Source of the DNA: Aquisphaera giovannonii
Lineage (GTDB): Bacteria; Planctomycetota; Planctomycetia; Isosphaerales; Isosphaeraceae
Assembly: GCF_008087625.1 (NCBI RefSeq)
Contig: NZ_CP042997.1
Location: 2,604,001 to 2,668,000, forward strand
Direction: 5' to 3'
DNA length: 64,000 nt
In this document: piece by piece, positions 16,647 to 23,550 of the stretch
How positions within the stretch are numbered: position 1 is the stretch's first letter
Layout: each line of letters starts with the position of its first letter
Program-made: the position numbers and the translations under genes
The notes under the pieces: model-generated
Told to the model about the DNA's origin: nothing
The model's input: the letters and a program-made list of their open reading frames with translations, nothing else
Databases searched by the model: none

Positions 16647-18260
16647 TCAGCTTCCCGGCGGCGGAGGATTCTCCTGGTCCTTGCGCTGCTGCTCCTCGTT
16701 CGCCTTCTGTCGCTGCTTCGCCCGGCGGCGCTCGTACTTGTCGTAGTCCGGGGCGCGGCCCATGGGGGTGTCCAGGGCGATGGACAGCATCTCGGCGAAC
16801 TTCCGCTTCTCCCGGTCCGCCAGGGTCTCCCCTTGGGTTCGCTCGTCGGGCACGCGCGCCGCCTTCGCCTCCAGGAACCACCGCTCGAACGCCTCCCACG
16901 TCCCGGGCGCCGGCGGGTCGCCGGGCGGCGGAGCCTGCTCGTCCTCGTCGTCCAGCGGCGGCGGCGGCTCCGGATCGTCCTCGGCGATCACGACCGGGGC
17001 GGGCTCCCAGCGGTCGGCCTCGGCGGTCGGCGCGGGCTCGGGCTCCCCGTGGAAGCCGCCTCCGTGCGGCGGCCGGGTGGGACCCGGCTCATCGCATCCG
17101 CCTCCATCGGGGATGGTGAGGGCGGGCCTCGGCTGGTCGGATCCGCCTCCATCAGCAAGGGCGTCCGCGGGCGACGGCTCGCCCGGTCGCCGCACGGAGG
17201 CGGCTCCCACGGCTTCGTCCGCGGGCGAGGGCTCGTCCGGCTCCGCGAGGGGGACGGTCGATGCGGCGGCCCCGCGGTCCTTGCGGAGCTTCCGGAGCTG
17301 CTCCAGCACCTGCATCAGCTCCCGCGTCCTCGCCGCGGCGGCGCGCCGGTGGCCGGCCAGCTCCAGCTCGGCCTCGAACGCCGCGGCGTCCGGGTCGACC
17401 TCCTCGCCGTCGCCCTCGCACAGCAGGGCGGCCAGGCGGGCCATCTGGGACTCGGCGTCGCGCAGGAGGACCGCCACCGCCTCCTCCGGCGTCGCCGGCA
17501 ACGGCGCGAAGGTCCGCCACTGCCGCTGCTGCTCGAAGAGCCGCCAGTCCTCCGCGTGCAGCTCGGCCAGGAAGCGGCCGTAGATCAGCCGGCCGCAGCC
17601 CGGCCAGGCGACCTCCGCCGCCGCCATCGCGGCGTTGAGGTCCAGGTCCCAGGCCAGGTCGGTGACGTGCCGGCCGTGCAGGCGGATGTAGCGGTAGAAG
17701 TCGCCGATGGCCGGCTCCAGCCCGGCGACGAAGTAGGCGCGGATCGATCGCCACTGCTCCAGCAGCCAGCGGCGGCCCTCGGCGGTCTCCTCCAGGCCGG
17801 CGAGGGCCGCGGCCGGGTCGTCGCGCCAGTCGGCGTCGCGGAACTCGTGGGGCGAGAGCGGGTGGAAGAGCTCGGCGGCCAGGCGGGTGACGCGGCGGCT
17901 GCGCTCCTCGGCGGCGCCTTCGCGGCCGGCCGGCGGGGCGGAGGCGCGGCGGGCGGCGTCGGCGAGGTAGGCGGACTCGGCGCGGTCGGAGCGCTCGATG
18001 GCCCAGGTGAGCCGCGCGGCTCGCTCCAGCAGCGAGCGCTCGAGGGAGTCGCCCGGCCGGCCCTCGCGGACGAAGCGGTCGATGAGGCGGGCGAGCGCCT
18101 TGGGGTCCTCCCGCGGGAGCACCGGCATGCCGAGGATCTCGGAGCGGCCGCCGTACACCAGGCCGTTGAGGCGGGACTCGGCCTTGCCCTCGGGGGTGCG
18201 CGGCCCGGTGGACTTCCGGGCGTTGCGGCGGTTCGCGGCGAGCCTGGCGTCGGAGATCAT
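16647..18260 (-). CDS. Conserved protein with NRRNARKSTGPRTPEGK motif, function unknown
   Basis: The N-terminal NRRNARKSTGPRTPEGKA followed by SRLNGLVYGG is a recurrent signature of a family found in several copies in planctomycete and acidobacterial genomes; its function is unknown. The first 330 residues are helical and Ala/Arg/Glu-rich. Residues about 350-405 are a low-complexity insert with repeated DGGGSD, DGGGCD and HGGGFH units. At DNA level this insert is an inverted-repeat element, annotated separately. The C terminus (about 440-537) is again charged and helical, ending in RRRAKQRQKANEEQQRKDQE. The ATG at 18260 is the first one before the signature. Confidence 0.75.
   Translation of the reverse strand: MISDARLAANRRNARKSTGPRTPEGKAESRLNGLVYGGRSEILGMPVLPREDPKALARLIDRFVREGRPGDSLERSLLERAARLTWAIERSDRAESAYLADAARRASAPPAGREGAAEERSRRVTRLAAELFHPLSPHEFRDADWRDDPAAALAGLEETAEGRRWLLEQWRSIRAYFVAGLEPAIGDFYRYIRLHGRHVTDLAWDLDLNAAMAAAEVAWPGCGRLIYGRFLAELHAEDWRLFEQQRQWRTFAPLPATPEEAVAVLLRDAESQMARLAALLCEGDGEEVDPDAAAFEAELELAGHRRAAAARTRELMQVLEQLRKLRKDRGAAASTVPLAEPDEPSPADEAVGAASVRRPGEPSPADALADGGGSDQPRPALTIPDGGGCDEPGPTRPPHGGGFHGEPEPAPTAEADRWEPAPVVIAEDDPEPPPPLDDEDEQAPPPGDPPAPGTWEAFERWFLEAKAARVPDERTQGETLADREKRKFAEMLSIALDTPMGRAPDYDKYERRRAKQRQKANEEQQRKDQENPPPPGS
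17047..17212. repeat. Palindromic repeat element inside a coding sequence
   Basis: The 26-base arms 17047-17072 and 17187-17212 are inverted copies of each other with 24 of 26 matches by eye. Between them are two direct copies of ATCCGCCTCCATC (17095-17107 and 17140-17152), and the left arm carries a related CCGCCTCCGT. A separate short direct repeat, CGTCCGCGGGCGA, occurs near 17161 and again near 17216. The whole element is read through in frame by the host gene as a Gly/Pro/Asp-rich segment. It resembles, in principle, palindromic elements that insert into genes in frame, as known in Rickettsia. Confidence 0.7.
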
Positions 18261-18426
18261 GGGGCGGGCCTCCGGATGTCGGGTGGCTGGCGGGGCCGCC
18301 GCAGACGCGGGATTGCGCCGGGGCGGACCTCGCAGCTTTTACCCAAGACGATCCGCGGCCTTGGCGGTGGGATTTCACGGGACCGGCAGAAAGCCGGCAG
18401 CCCGTCGGGCGGCCGGGAGAGGGCGC

Positions 18427-18604
18427 GTGACCACGATCGTCCAATCGTGGTTCGGACGGGGCGCAGCCCTCCGGCCTCGCACGTCCGTGCGATCCGAGCC
18501 TGGGCGGCGTGGGTTGCGGGCCGGCATCGCCGCATGCCGGTCGGGCTCACGCCCGAGGCTGGGGGCTTCGCCCGTCCGAACCACCCGCTCACGCGGGTGG
18601 TCAC
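18427..18604. repeat. 178-bp multi-hairpin element bounded by inverted GTGACCAC/GTGGTCAC
   Basis: The outer ends GTGACCAC (18427-18434) and GTGGTCAC (18597-18604) are exact inverted copies. Segments 18448-18478 and 18555-18584 form a long imperfect inverted pair (GGTTCGGACGGGC-type arms). Inside are further perfect hairpins: CCACGAT/ATCGTGG (18431-18450), GCACG/CGTGC (18479-18490), CCGGCAT/ATGCCGG (18521-18540), TCGGGC/GCCCGA (18541-18556) and a 9-bp stem ACCACCCGC/GCGGGTGGT (18580-18601). No coding capacity is evident. It sits about 240 bases upstream of a tRNA gene. It looks like a REP/MITE-type non-autonomous repeat or a structured RNA. Confidence 0.75.
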
Positions 18605-18796
18605 ATGTTCAGAAAAGCGGAGGAGAGGTGGGTAGACATCGCCGCTAGGTCGAGCGGGTGACCGATGCGATCTCGGCCTTGATCTCCGGCCACGCACTGT
18701 GATTTTGAGGCCGGGAAGGGGCGACCTCGGACCTCCGGAAATCCGCCGCGTCGAGGATCGACGGGCCTCGGCGGAGCAGCAAGGGTCGCCGGGTGG

Positions 18797-18824
18797 TTGA
18801 CTTGTCCCCGGGCCCTGATAGAAT
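18797..18824 (+). promoter_or_regulatory. Sigma-70-type promoter of tRNA-Ile
   Basis: A -35 box TTGACT (18797-18802) is followed after 16 bases by a -10 box TAGAAT (18819-18824). The -10 box ends 19 bases before the mature tRNA, a suitable distance for a short leader. Confidence 0.75.
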
Positions 18825-18843
18825 CCTTTCTCATGACTCGCCA

Positions 18844-18917
18844 GGGCGCATAGCTCAGTAGGCTAGAGCGCGTCGCTGATAACGACGAGGTCTCAGGTTC
18901 GAATCCTGATGCGCCCA
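18844..18917 (+). tRNA. tRNA-Ile(GAU)
   Basis: This is a complete cloverleaf of 74 bases. The acceptor GGGCGCA pairs with TGCGCCC plus an A discriminator. The anticodon stem CGTCG/CGACG encloses loop CTGATAA, which presents anticodon GAT. The T arm TCAGG-TTCGAAT-CCTGA is perfect. CCA is not encoded. GAT decodes AUC/AUU isoleucine codons. It is not next to 16S or 23S rRNA genes, unlike the tRNA-Ile of many rRNA operons. Confidence 0.97.
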
Positions 18918-18971
18918 CTCGCGAAGTCTCTGGGAAGGATGAACCGTCCCTCCCGTTGACGCCGAAATGCG

Positions 18972-19018
18972 ACGAGCCGGGCTCGATCCATTCCGATCGA
19001 GCCCGGCTCGTTTGTTTT
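18972..19018 (+). terminator. Strong intrinsic terminator after tRNA-Ile
   Basis: A perfect 16-bp stem (18973-18988 with 18995-19010) closes a six-base loop and is followed by TTTGTTTT. It ends the tRNA transcript about 55 bases past the mature 3' end. It also lies just beyond the end of the convergent gene at 19044 and may block read-through from that side. Confidence 0.92.
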
Positions 19019-19043
19019 GCGAGGGCTTTCGCCCGGGCGAGGG

Positions 19044-19562
19044 TCACTCGTCGTCGTCGTCGGGCTCGTCGTCGATCTCGACTTCCTCTTCCTCTTCCTC
19101 GATGTCCTCTTCCTCCTCGATCGCGGCCTCCACCTCCTTGACCGCGGCCTTCTTCGCGGCGGGCTCGGGGCGGGGGATGATGGCACCCAGGCCGGGGGCG
19201 TCGTCGGGCATGGCCTCCTTGGTGCGCTGGACGAAGTGCGTCCCGCGGCCCTTGGCCGTGAGCTCGGCGGCCCGCGTCTCGGCGGCCTCCTTCTGCGAAT
19301 AGTCGAAGGTGGCCACCGGCTTGAAGGCGTCGTTCATCACGACCCAGACGATCCGCATCCGCGCGGCGGGCTTGGCGGGGCGGCTGGACTTGGACTTGGA
19401 CTTGGCCGGCGCCTTGGCCTTCTTCTTGGGCTTCTTCTCTACGGCCTCGTCTTCCTCGACGTCCGGCGCGACCTCGTCGGTCTCGTCCTCCATGGGATCC
19501 GGCGGCTCCGCCGCTTCGTACTGGCGCCTCAGCTCAAGCCGGTTCTGCGGTTTCCCAGCCAT
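19044..19562 (-). CDS. Small acidic/basic low-complexity protein, function unknown
   Basis: The 172-residue product has three parts: an acidic then Lys/Ala-rich head (VEKKPKKKAKAPAKSKSKSS), a compact middle (RMRIVWVVMNDAFKPVATFD and AETRAAELTAKGRGTHFVQR, about residues 68-112), and a long acidic tail of Glu and Asp. The middle looks like a small conserved domain, perhaps nucleic-acid or protein binding; the charged tails are probably disordered. The ATG follows a GGTGAGAGG-like ribosome site. I do not recognise the family. The convergent tRNA terminator lies just downstream. Confidence 0.75.
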   Translation of the reverse strand: MAGKPQNRLELRRQYEAAEPPDPMEDETDEVAPDVEEDEAVEKKPKKKAKAPAKSKSKSSRPAKPAARMRIVWVVMNDAFKPVATFDYSQKEAAETRAAELTAKGRGTHFVQRTKEAMPDDAPGLGAIIPRPEPAAKKAAVKEVEAAIEEEEDIEEEEEEVEIDDEPDDDDE

Positions 19563-20503: not shown

Positions 20504-20838
20504 GGTCGCGGGGATCTCGGCGGCGGGCGGGAGTCGGGAAGGGCTCGCCCGCGGCGACCCTCGGCCTCATTGTAGGCGCAGGGCAAAGGGTGTGCCGGAT
20601 TCCGATTCGCCCGGCCGCGAGTCGCCGCGCGGGCCGGCGGCGAAGCGGCCCGGGTGCCCCCTGGCGTGAGGCCGACCGCCCGCATAGGATGTCTGCTTCG
20701 GGCGGGGTCCGCCGATGCACAAATCTTCCTCCGGCCCCGCCTGAACGCGGCGCCGGCCGGCTCCCGTCGGTGGCGGGTCGTGCCGCTGCCGAGAAGCCGA
20801 CTCGTGGACTCGGTCCCCGGTACCCGTCCCAGGCAGCG
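20504..20838. other. Divergent intergenic region upstream of nuoBCD
   Basis: This region of 335 bases lies between the minus-strand small membrane protein and the plus-strand complex I block and must carry both promoters. I could not pick a convincing -35/-10 pair. The nuoBCD frame stays open upstream through this region, but the translation before 20839 is not complex I-like. Confidence 0.5.
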
Positions 20839-23550
20839 ATGAATCGAATCATGGCGAATACGACGATCGTCCGCCCGGAGTGGAGCACGGTCATCGACCC
20901 GGTGCTCCAGAAGGAGCTCGAGCAGCACGTCCTCGTCACGACGTGGGACAGGCTGCTGGGCCTGATCGACCCGATCTACAACTGGGGGCGGCGGTCCAGC
21001 CTCTGGCCCCTGGGCTTCGGCCTGGCCTGCTGCGCGATCGAGATGATCTGCACGGCGTCGAGCCGCTTCGACATCGCCCGCTTCGGCGCGGAGGTGTTCC
21101 GCGGGTCGCCCCGCCAGGCGGACCTGATGATCGTCTCGGGCACCGTCACCAAGACCATGATGCCCATGATCGCCCGGCTCTACGACCAGATGCCGGAGCC
21201 GAAGTACGTGATCTCGATGGGCGCCTGCGCCAGCGGCGGCGGCCCGTTCAAGGAGGGCTACAACGTCGTCTCGGGCATCGACAAGTACCTCCCGGTGGAC
21301 GTGTACATCCCGGGCTGCCCGCCGACCCCGCAGGCGCTGCTGAACGGCCTGATCGTGCTCCAGAAGAAGATCGACGGCGAGAAGATCGTCAACGCGCCGT
21401 GGTACCGGGGCGACGTCGAGCGGGACATCCCGATCCCGGTCCTGGGCCCGGACCTGATCGACCTGCGGACGGTCGAGATCGCCGCCGAGAAGACGGCCCA
21501 GGGGGCCTTCGAGGCCCGCGAGGCCGAGCTGCCGAAGCCCCCCAAGATCCCGGCCCCCCAGCCCGAGGCGGAAGCCGCCCCGGCGGCGCCCTCCGCCAAC
21601 GGCCCGGCCGCCGCCGCCCCGGCGGCGAAGCCGATGAGCAAGATCGAGATGATCCGCGCCAAGGCCCGCGGCGAGGCCGTCCCCGCCGCCGCGACCGACG
21701 GCGCCGCGGCGCCCGCCGCGCCCGCCGAGACGCCCGCGCCGGCGGCGAAGCCCGCCAAGAAGGCGAAGAAGGCCGAGGAGCGGCCGAGCCTCGTCTGGCT
21801 CGGCGTGGAGAAGCTGAAGGCGCTGGCCGCACGCCTGAACGGGGAGCTCGGCGAGGGGACGGCCACCATCGTCCAGGCCGGCCTGCTCATCCCCGCGGGG
21901 AAGCTCGTCGAGGCCGCGCTCTACCTGAGGGACCGCAACGAGGTCCGGTACGATTACCTGGCCAGCCTCCAGAGCGTCCACTACGAGGACTGCATCGAGG
22001 TCAACTATCAGCTCGACAGCACGAGCTCCCCGGGCTCGCTGATCGCGCTCCGGGTCCGGACGGCCGAGGCCGAGGGGGAGGGCGAGGTCCCGTCCCTGTA
22101 CGCGGTCTATCGCGGGGCCGACTTCCAGGAGCGGGAGGTCTACGACATGATGGGCGTCCGGTTCGCCGGGCACCCGGAGCTGAAGCGGATCCTCATGTGG
22201 GACGGCTTCGCCTACTATCCCCTCCGCAAGGACTACCTGGAGCCCTACTACGAGGCGCCCGCGAAGGTCCTGCCCAGCCGCGTCGAGGACGGTTTCGGCC
22301 AGCACACCCGGGCCGAGGAGGTCCACCCGCTGGGGACCAACGTCAAGATCCCCCGCGACTTCAAGGACTGGGCCAGCCTCTCCAGCGGCTCGGATCCCAA
22401 GGGCAAGCCCCTCCTCCCGGCCGGCGTGGAGGTGGAGGAGCTGGGCACCGACCAGTACATGATCAGCATGGGGCCCCAGCACCCGAGCACCCACGGCGTC
22501 TTCCGCCTCAACCTCCGGGTCGACGGCGAGACGATCATCGGCCTCAAGCCGGTCATGGGGTACATGCACCGGAACCACGAGAAGATCGGCGAGCGGAACA
22601 CGTTCCTGATGAACTTCCCGTTCACCGACCGGCTCGACTACCTCACCAGCATGGGGAACAACTTCGGCTACGCCCTCGCGATCGAGCAGCTCATGGGCGA
22701 CGACGCGAGGCCGCCGGAGCGGGCCGAGTACATCCGCGTGATCATGGCGGAGCTGACCCGGATCGCCAGCCACATGTGGTCGATCGGCTTCCTCCTGAAT
22801 GACCTGGGCGCGTTCTTCACCCCGGCGCTCTACGCGATCGAGGAGCGGGAGCTGATCCTGGACCTCTTCGAGTGGGCCTCCGGCAGCCGGATGATGTGCA
22901 ACTACTTCCGCTTCGGCGGCGTGGCCTTCGACCTGCCGAAGGGGTGGATCGAGCGTTGCCGGGGGATCGTCAACGACCGCATCGACCGCAAGATCGACGA
23001 GCTGGACCGGTACCTCTCGGGCAACGAGATCGTGCTGGATCGCTGCAAGGGGGTGGGCGTCCTCTCCGCCGAGCAGGCGATCAACTACTCCGCGGCCGGC
23101 CCCGTGCTGCGGGCCTCGAACGTCCCCTACGACATCCGCCGCGCGGCGCCCTACAGCATCTACGACCGGTTCGACTTCGAGGTCATCACCGGGGCCAACG
23201 GCGACCTCTACGACAGGTACTACGTCCGGCTGCTGGAGATGCGGGAGAGCGCGAAGATCCTCAAGCAGGCCGTCCGCGACATCCCGGAAGGGCCCATCCT
23301 GCCGGGCAAGAAGACCTACCAGATCAAGGTGCCGGCGGGCGAGGCCTACTCGCGGGTCGAGAACCCCAAGGGCGAACTCGGCTACTACGTCCTGGCCGAC
23401 GGCTCGGGGACGGCGTACCGGTATCACGTCCGCAGCCCGAGCTTCATCAACCTGACGGCGCTCGAGGCCATGTGCCTGGGCCACACCGTGGCCGACGTCG
23501 TCGGCATCCTCGGCAGCATCGACATCGTCCTGGGCGAGGTGGACCGCTAG
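20839..23550 (+). CDS. nuoBCD: NADH-quinone oxidoreductase subunits B, C and D fused in one protein
   Basis: The single 903-residue reading frame contains three complex I subunits. NuoB is residues about 30-200 with the N2 cluster ligands Cys64/Cys65 (GLACCAIEM), Cys130 (GACASGGG) and Cys160 (PGCPPTPQ). An Ala/Pro/Lys linker spans about 225-315. NuoC is about 315-490 ([31 protein letters not shown]). NuoD is about 530-903 ([31 protein letters not shown]). These form the Q-module connecting the iron-sulphur chain to quinone. NuoCD fusions are well known; the addition of NuoB is much less common. I prefer the ATG at 20839; a second is at 20851. No frameshift or stop interrupts the junctions. 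Confidence 0.95.

Follow-up and report, generated by a model that had tools for sequence, protein, structure and literature searches.

A hairpin-rich dimeric repeat upstream of a tRNA-Ile gene in Aquisphaera giovannonii is a probable non-autonomous member of a Y1 (HUH) element family

We analysed a stretch of 64,000 nucleotides from Aquisphaera giovannonii (contig NZ_CP042997.1, positions 2,604,001–2,668,000), hereafter the window. At gathering scores, the window has a single Rfam match, a tRNA-Ile gene at 18844, which is directly followed by a strong terminator-like hairpin of 18 pairs (18971–19012, plus strand). Farther downstream, a 986-aa ORF (20590–23550, plus strand) appears, judging by its motifs, to fuse NADH dehydrogenase subunits B, C and D in one frame. 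On the other side of the tRNA, a gene for a 537-aa protein that starts MISDARLAANRRNARKSTGPRTPEGK lies on the minus strand (16647–18260) and has no Pfam or NCBIfam match. Its family has 21 matches in the genome. Between this gene and the tRNA is a 178-base element (18427–18604), to which no strand is assigned and which likely contains no gene, although mechanical ORFs of 146–683 aa span it. From its anatomy and its other copies, the element is a dimer of two inverted modules with their GTGA tags outermost.

The element has exact 8-nt inverted ends, GTGACCAC (18427–18434) and GTGGTCAC (18597–18604), and an inner inverted repeat of 34 nt that is imperfect (18427–18460 and 18571–18604, 74% complementary). 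Five perfect hairpins are found at 18430–18451 (8 bp), 18477–18492 (6 bp), 18521–18540 (7 bp), 18541–18556 (6 bp) and 18580–18601 (9 bp). The original prediction had described exact terminal inverted repeats, a long imperfect inner repeat and five perfect smaller hairpins, all of which we located, the stems being 6–9 bp long. It had also held that this nested structure was not expected by chance even in GC-rich DNA, and folding bears this out. As RNA, the plus strand of the element folds at −120.7 kcal/mol (z −5.85) and the minus strand at −111.9 kcal/mol (z −6.82); none of 200 dinucleotide shuffles folded as well on either strand, so the structure exceeds chance despite the high GC content. 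Side-by-side alignment of copies and module counts define a left end module (18427–18493, plus strand), composed of the GTGA foot, hairpin 1 (18430–18451, plus strand, ACCACGAT / ATCGTGGT), a conserved linker beginning with GGTTCGGACGGG (18449–18476, plus strand) and hairpin 2 (18477–18492, plus strand, TCGCAC / GTGCGA with loop GTCC), the last seen in this copy and in others. The linker is mostly complementary to its inverted counterpart in the right module. In the window copy the hairpin-1 loop is CGTCCA, deviating from the usual C-GTSA-G. A variable middle without assigned strand (18493–18540), recognised from the variation between copies and from a copy with a transposase gene (tnpA), contains the hairpin at 18521–18540 and corresponds to the tnpA position in the sister-species element. 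The inverted right end module (18541–18604, minus strand) comprises hairpin 3 (18541–18556), the linker (18571–18582 and inwards), hairpin 4 (18580–18601) and the GTCAC end.

Comparison of the copies gives a common module plan, namely a GTGA foot, hairpin 1, a linker running from GGTTCGGACGGG to CCTCCAGCC and a second hairpin, and each full copy consists of two inverted modules of about 64 nt. Hairpin 1 has a loop of 4 bases and, in most copies, a stem of 8 bp. For covariation we kept 144 of 163 candidate modules from three genomes; at least two of the 19 left out (L010 and L117) look real but decayed. The hairpin-1 loops of the 144 modules are GTGA in 69, GTCA in 42 and GTCG in 16. Hairpin 2 is present in 136 of the 144 (loops GTCA in 73 and GTGA in 24), a count that is no independent test because this hairpin was located by best-stem search. 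Pairs were counted with a purpose-written script. In the 58 distinct sequences, 90.5% of the hairpin-1 cells are paired, against a mean of 71.6% and a maximum of 75.4% in 500 shuffles, a shuffle count that is not a probability because the sequences are related. Pairing drops to 28–39% when slid by 1–2 bases, and one inner stem position takes all four Watson–Crick types among the 58 sequences. Such a spread of pair types would be hard to obtain without a pairing constraint. Compensatory changes, which the original prediction had proposed as a check, are thus present in the hairpin-1 stem across three genomes.

When the 10.5-Mb genome that carries the element was searched for it by BLAST, at least 70 matches at no fewer than 41 places were obtained, a lower bound, as 40 of 152 candidates were scored. 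The 14-nt linker motif with at most one mismatch had 103 matches, versus 0 for a reversed control; four of the fetched matches (L108, L118, L124 and L125) lie outside the repeat. A full copy, that is, a paired dimer, is present at 52 of the 64 places fetched from this genome, giving 54 rows with two loci counted twice. We rely on this number rather than on a looser count of 65 dimers, about ten of which were judged spurious by position. The copies sit in unrelated flanks. The absence of other copies had been named as grounds for rejecting the original prediction; instead, dozens with conserved ends were found. Three of 40 genomes match the element: its own, that of Aquisphaera insulae (G002) and one of another genus in the family (G006), which has ten repeat loci. 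This 40-genome search gave no match in G001, the second of the two other members of the genus Aquisphaera. A stricter linker pattern matched two of 45 family genomes, its own and that of A. insulae, and plasmid records gave no match.

We found the tnpA-bearing form in A. insulae JC669 (contig C244, locus L051, 1695–2523). In this 829-bp element, the same two modules stand about 690 bases apart and enclose a single open, minus-strand ORF 224 aa long, whose true start is possibly about 40 codons further in. The product scores 96.9 bits against Y1_Tnp (PF01797, cut-off 23), 101.2 bits against the NCBIfam IS200/IS605 transposase model NF033573 (cut-off 55) and 29.9 bits against the RAYT model, under the cut-off of 80. 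Its motifs are DHVH, the tyrosine motif YIGKQDDHH and the W motif WG. Related solved structures are the hypothetical transposase 2ec2 (E 3.5e-16) and the ISHp608 transposase (E 2e-12); the top-listed structure, SAKe6AC, has no stretch that passes alone. A genome search for an L051-type transposase in the window genome gave none. In the 45 family genomes, a close-identity L051 transposase occurs only in A. insulae, and one further genome (G040) matches at 28–31%. Among 397 genomes of the class, 15 match at E ≤1e-20, the 14 others at 30–37% identity. We inspected 19 loci of these relatives out of 27 matches, and 17 have an open HuH-to-Y frame. None of the 17 has the Q--HH motif, and none has flanking inverted repeats in a short BLAST, a coarse search that reported just 14-base pieces in A. 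insulae itself. A scan of named genomes, which may omit records near the genome of the window, found the A. insulae locus only. A tnpA gene between these arms was observed in a single copy. The shared ends are the one argument for movement by the L051 enzyme, since its gene was found once and close relatives were found neither in the other family genomes nor in the window genome.

In the window genome, at least 29 copies extend by a further 60–70 bases on each side and have sharp ends at GGSATCGTCCC. The 26 that could be anchored (L008, L014 and L105 gave no anchor) are 305–323 bp long, and 19 of them show an 8-bp target duplication matching at 7 or more positions; 12 are exact, and 1.6 are expected from unpaired flanks. 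Other duplication lengths from 4 to 11 occurred in 0 or 1. Matches to this ~320-bp form outside the 29 are L133, three truncated copies (L038, L040 and L114) and an incomplete copy on contig C2. The end motif with at most two mismatches had 106 matches, versus 8 in the reversed control, and by eye neither a full-length partner IS nor a leftover pair of ends at IS-like spacing was seen among the matches listed (100 of the 106). Independent insertions of this carrier number fewer than 19, because L032 and L033 have common flanks and L107, L115, L116 and L121 share one target. These four have the same duplicated target GCTTCGCC (mismatched in one of them) beside genes of the 537-aa family, and may be co-duplicated rather than independently inserted. 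L027 also carries GCTTCGCC. Besides the window pair, five matches of the 537-aa family have 320-bp copies no more than about 1 kb away, judged from coordinates. The outer ends of the A. insulae copies are related to these: 7 of 10 loci gave weak to fair profile matches (best E 3e-4), and L059 of that species has an exact 8-bp duplication. The ~320-bp unit bears the signature of a DDE-type MITE.

Could the 178-base element then be nothing but the core of this ~320-bp DDE-type MITE? Copies like that in the window would be old MITEs whose outer 60–70 bases have been lost or mutated, and no HUH enzyme would be at work here. The carrier copies with their 8-bp duplications and the related outer ends in A. 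insulae, L059 included, speak for this explanation, and traces of decayed outer flanks found by alignment (L011, L016, L024 and L035) and weak outer-end profile matches (L012, L017, L025 and L123) fit it as well. Nevertheless, we consider it unlikely. The arms of the non-carrier copies remain 78–100% identical to the consensus, whereas both outer flanks are at background in 21 of 25 non-carrier dimer rows (z <2.5 against 60 shuffles; 25 loci were taken, L019 contributing no row and L012 two rows, with L020, L109 and L133 left out), so frequent loss precisely to GTGAC / GTCAC is not expected. The window copy is among the 21 and lacks the carrier outer ends. The explanation also leaves the tnpA copy with the same ends unaccounted for, as it does the ten G006 loci, in which the outer-end profiles matched nothing at E <1.

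We then compared the inner ends, using 24 dimer rows obtained from 26 loci; an end is misplaced in at least one row (L010), and a few more rows are ragged. At zero offset, three or more matching bases were found in none of the 24 rows, which is what Y1 enzymes should leave, though chance would also give almost none. With offsets of up to 8, a 6-base direct repeat was seen in two of the 24 rows against about 0.6 expected (6 bases or more), which leaves room for a small target duplication at shifted ends. A weak shared tail, or weak base preferences, just outside GTCAC makes the end position uncertain by a few bases, and the true end of the element may be a few bases further out.

The window copy lies at one edge of a 1.94-kb duplication (16671–18610, no strand assigned) with 95.3% identity to a locus at about 9.33 Mb on the same contig. 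The match includes nearly all of the gene at 16647–18260 together with the element and ends 6 nt past the element. The neighbouring gene has a third copy (L129, 96.3%), whose match stops at 18355, 72 bases short of the element, and this locus has no element match; for the more distant gene copies L130 and L131, the matches stop at 18378 and 18382. In A. insulae, synteny with the window begins only at 18819, beside the tRNA, and the 8.6 kb upstream of the tRNA has no element match. Upstream of the tRNA, no homology was seen in the corresponding stretches of A. insulae, G001 and G006. No precise empty site was found in L129–L131 or in the tRNA regions of these three genomes. The element came to its present place with, or before, the 1.94-kb duplication. 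The window copy is not recognisably a passenger of the carrier, and it shares the 1.94-kb duplication with one other copy.

Taken together, the ends, the hairpin code and the tnpA copy suggest that the 178-base unit is probably a non-autonomous member of a Y1 (HUH) element family with long hairpin-bearing inverted ends. As far as sequence can tell, a REPIN/TIRtron-like derivative of an L051-type element is the best reading of the window copy, in which only the two ends are left, about 50 bases apart, in a REPIN- or BIME-like arrangement. By inference from IS608 and the REP enzymes, a Y1 transposase dimer would bind the hairpins in single-stranded DNA, and the 5′ GTGA foot would set cleavage near GTGAC / GTCAC. 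Y1 enzymes insert without duplicating their target, and the unit would do likewise. Present-day movement in the window genome is unproven because the L051-type tnpA was not found there. The ~320-bp form suggests a second, separate route of spread, in which a DDE-type transposase would have spread at least 29 copies as passengers inside that unit. More tentatively, the family may have spread in two modes, alone as a HUH (Y1) element and as a passenger in a DDE-type MITE, the HUH transposase having been lost here and passengers making up about half of the copies.

Another Y1 explanation, which we regard as highly improbable, is a REP/BIME family served by resident REP-associated transposases (RAYTs). 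The genome has six Y1 domain matches, five of which were scanned with the RAYT model (the sixth, L046, being outside the scan); two pass the RAYT cut-off and three miss it. A pair of Y1 genes is found about 1.7 kb from one of the 320-bp copies, and the paired inverted palindromes resemble REP dimers. Against this, the linker motif with at most two mismatches is absent from about 1.5 kb on each side of the six Y1 loci, the foot is GTGA rather than GT[AG]G, and the transposase found between the same ends is of IS200 type by its scores, with 29.9 against the RAYT cut-off of 80. The linker motif is likewise absent from L068–L070 of G006 and L071–L072 of G040, and RAYTs were rejected as the mover. 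The pair mentioned above (L041 and L042, G000:C1:8353160–8355076) consists of two REP-type Y1 genes 1.2 kb apart in opposite orientation. The least credible proposal, that the element encodes a structured RNA or serves as a leader for the tRNA-Ile, draws on the very stable fold of both strands and on covarying stems, which are expected of DNA and RNA hairpins alike, but was rejected, as the gathering-threshold Rfam scan of the window gives the tRNA alone, the copies are dispersed among unrelated flanks, the sole promoter found in 18200–19100 (sigma-70-like, the one type searched) lies beyond the element on its downstream side, directly ahead of the tRNA, and the 8.6 kb upstream of the tRNA in A. 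insulae has no match to the element.

For the Y1 (HUH) family member that we favour, the closest published kind, as far as the available part of the source goes, is the TIRtrons, or TIRYT repeats, in which tyrosine transposases stand between inverted repeats whose copies make up dispersed families, many of them as dimers and some partly self-complementary (Di Nocera and colleagues 2013, PMC3733652). The A. insulae copy likewise has a tyrosine transposase between inverted repeats of a dispersed family. However, the transposases of PMC3733652 are described there as RAYT-like, whereas ours is of IS200 type (RAYT model 29.9 versus 80), and neither the double-hairpin GTSA module nor a ~320-bp carrier with 8-bp duplications is among the features given in that part of the source. 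We do not file the unit as a TIRtron because of its IS200-type enzyme, its double-hairpin GTSA module and its DDE-like carrier. REPINs and BIMEs with RAYTs (PMC2817692, PMC3116915 and PMC6006769) share the two inverted palindromes, the tetranucleotide at the hairpin foot and the Y1 association. They differ in the foot, which is GTGA here and not GT[AG]G, in the hairpins per module, of which there are two here, and in the RAYT gene flanked by repeats, which is lacking at the six Y1 loci here (linker, at most two mismatches). By analogy, the unit would work like a REPIN moved by a Y1 enzyme. TnpA subclass 1.2 has the signature Y---Q--HH and the W motif WQ (Table 1 of PMC6006769); according to that paper, its members generally lack terminal IS200 structures and come mostly from Cyanobacteria and Bacteroidetes. 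YIGKQDDHH of L051 fits this signature, but the WG motif, the elaborate hairpin ends and the planctomycete host set it apart from that description. Among the papers listed by a literature search, none is on repeats of the genus Aquisphaera.

The unit shares with the IS200/IS605 elements the HUH Y1 transposase, in the sister-species copy only, and subterminal hairpins at both ends. Terminal inverted repeats or long inverted ends are not a known feature of IS200/IS605 elements, whereas the arms here are long inverted repeats. IS200/IS605 elements insert beside a fixed target tetranucleotide; outside the ends of the present unit, base preferences are weak. As in MITEs, a short unit with terminal inverted repeats occurs in many copies, and a longer relative, the single-copy L051, has a transposase gene between the same ends; unlike in MITEs, no target duplication is seen at the unit's own ends (0 of 24 at zero offset). 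The ~320-bp carrier resembles bacterial DDE MITEs in its inverted end motif and 8-bp duplications, both of which the window copy lacks. The original prediction had left the choice between a REP- or MITE-like mobile element and a folded RNA. The mobile repeat is supported by dozens of copies, conserved ends and hairpin-1 covariation, but strictly it qualifies neither as a REP, which calls for GT[AG]G, nor as a MITE, which calls for target duplications, and the folded RNA gained no support. Target duplications, also suggested for checking, were seen flanking the ~320-bp carrier (19 of 26) and not at the ends of the 178-base unit.

An IS200-type transposase with Y---Q--HH thereby gains a candidate substrate, with a GTGA foot, a GTSA loop and a variable, covarying stem. 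Should the two-route reading be true, one small repeat would travel with two unrelated transposition systems, and this could account for the survival of such palindromes once their own transposase has gone. Two copies are themselves rearranged. In L120 (about 1460–1700), the middle is inverted relative to the ends, as though the arms had recombined with each other and turned the segment around, and the copy in L037 (about 1500–1850) is split by another insert of roughly 200 bases.
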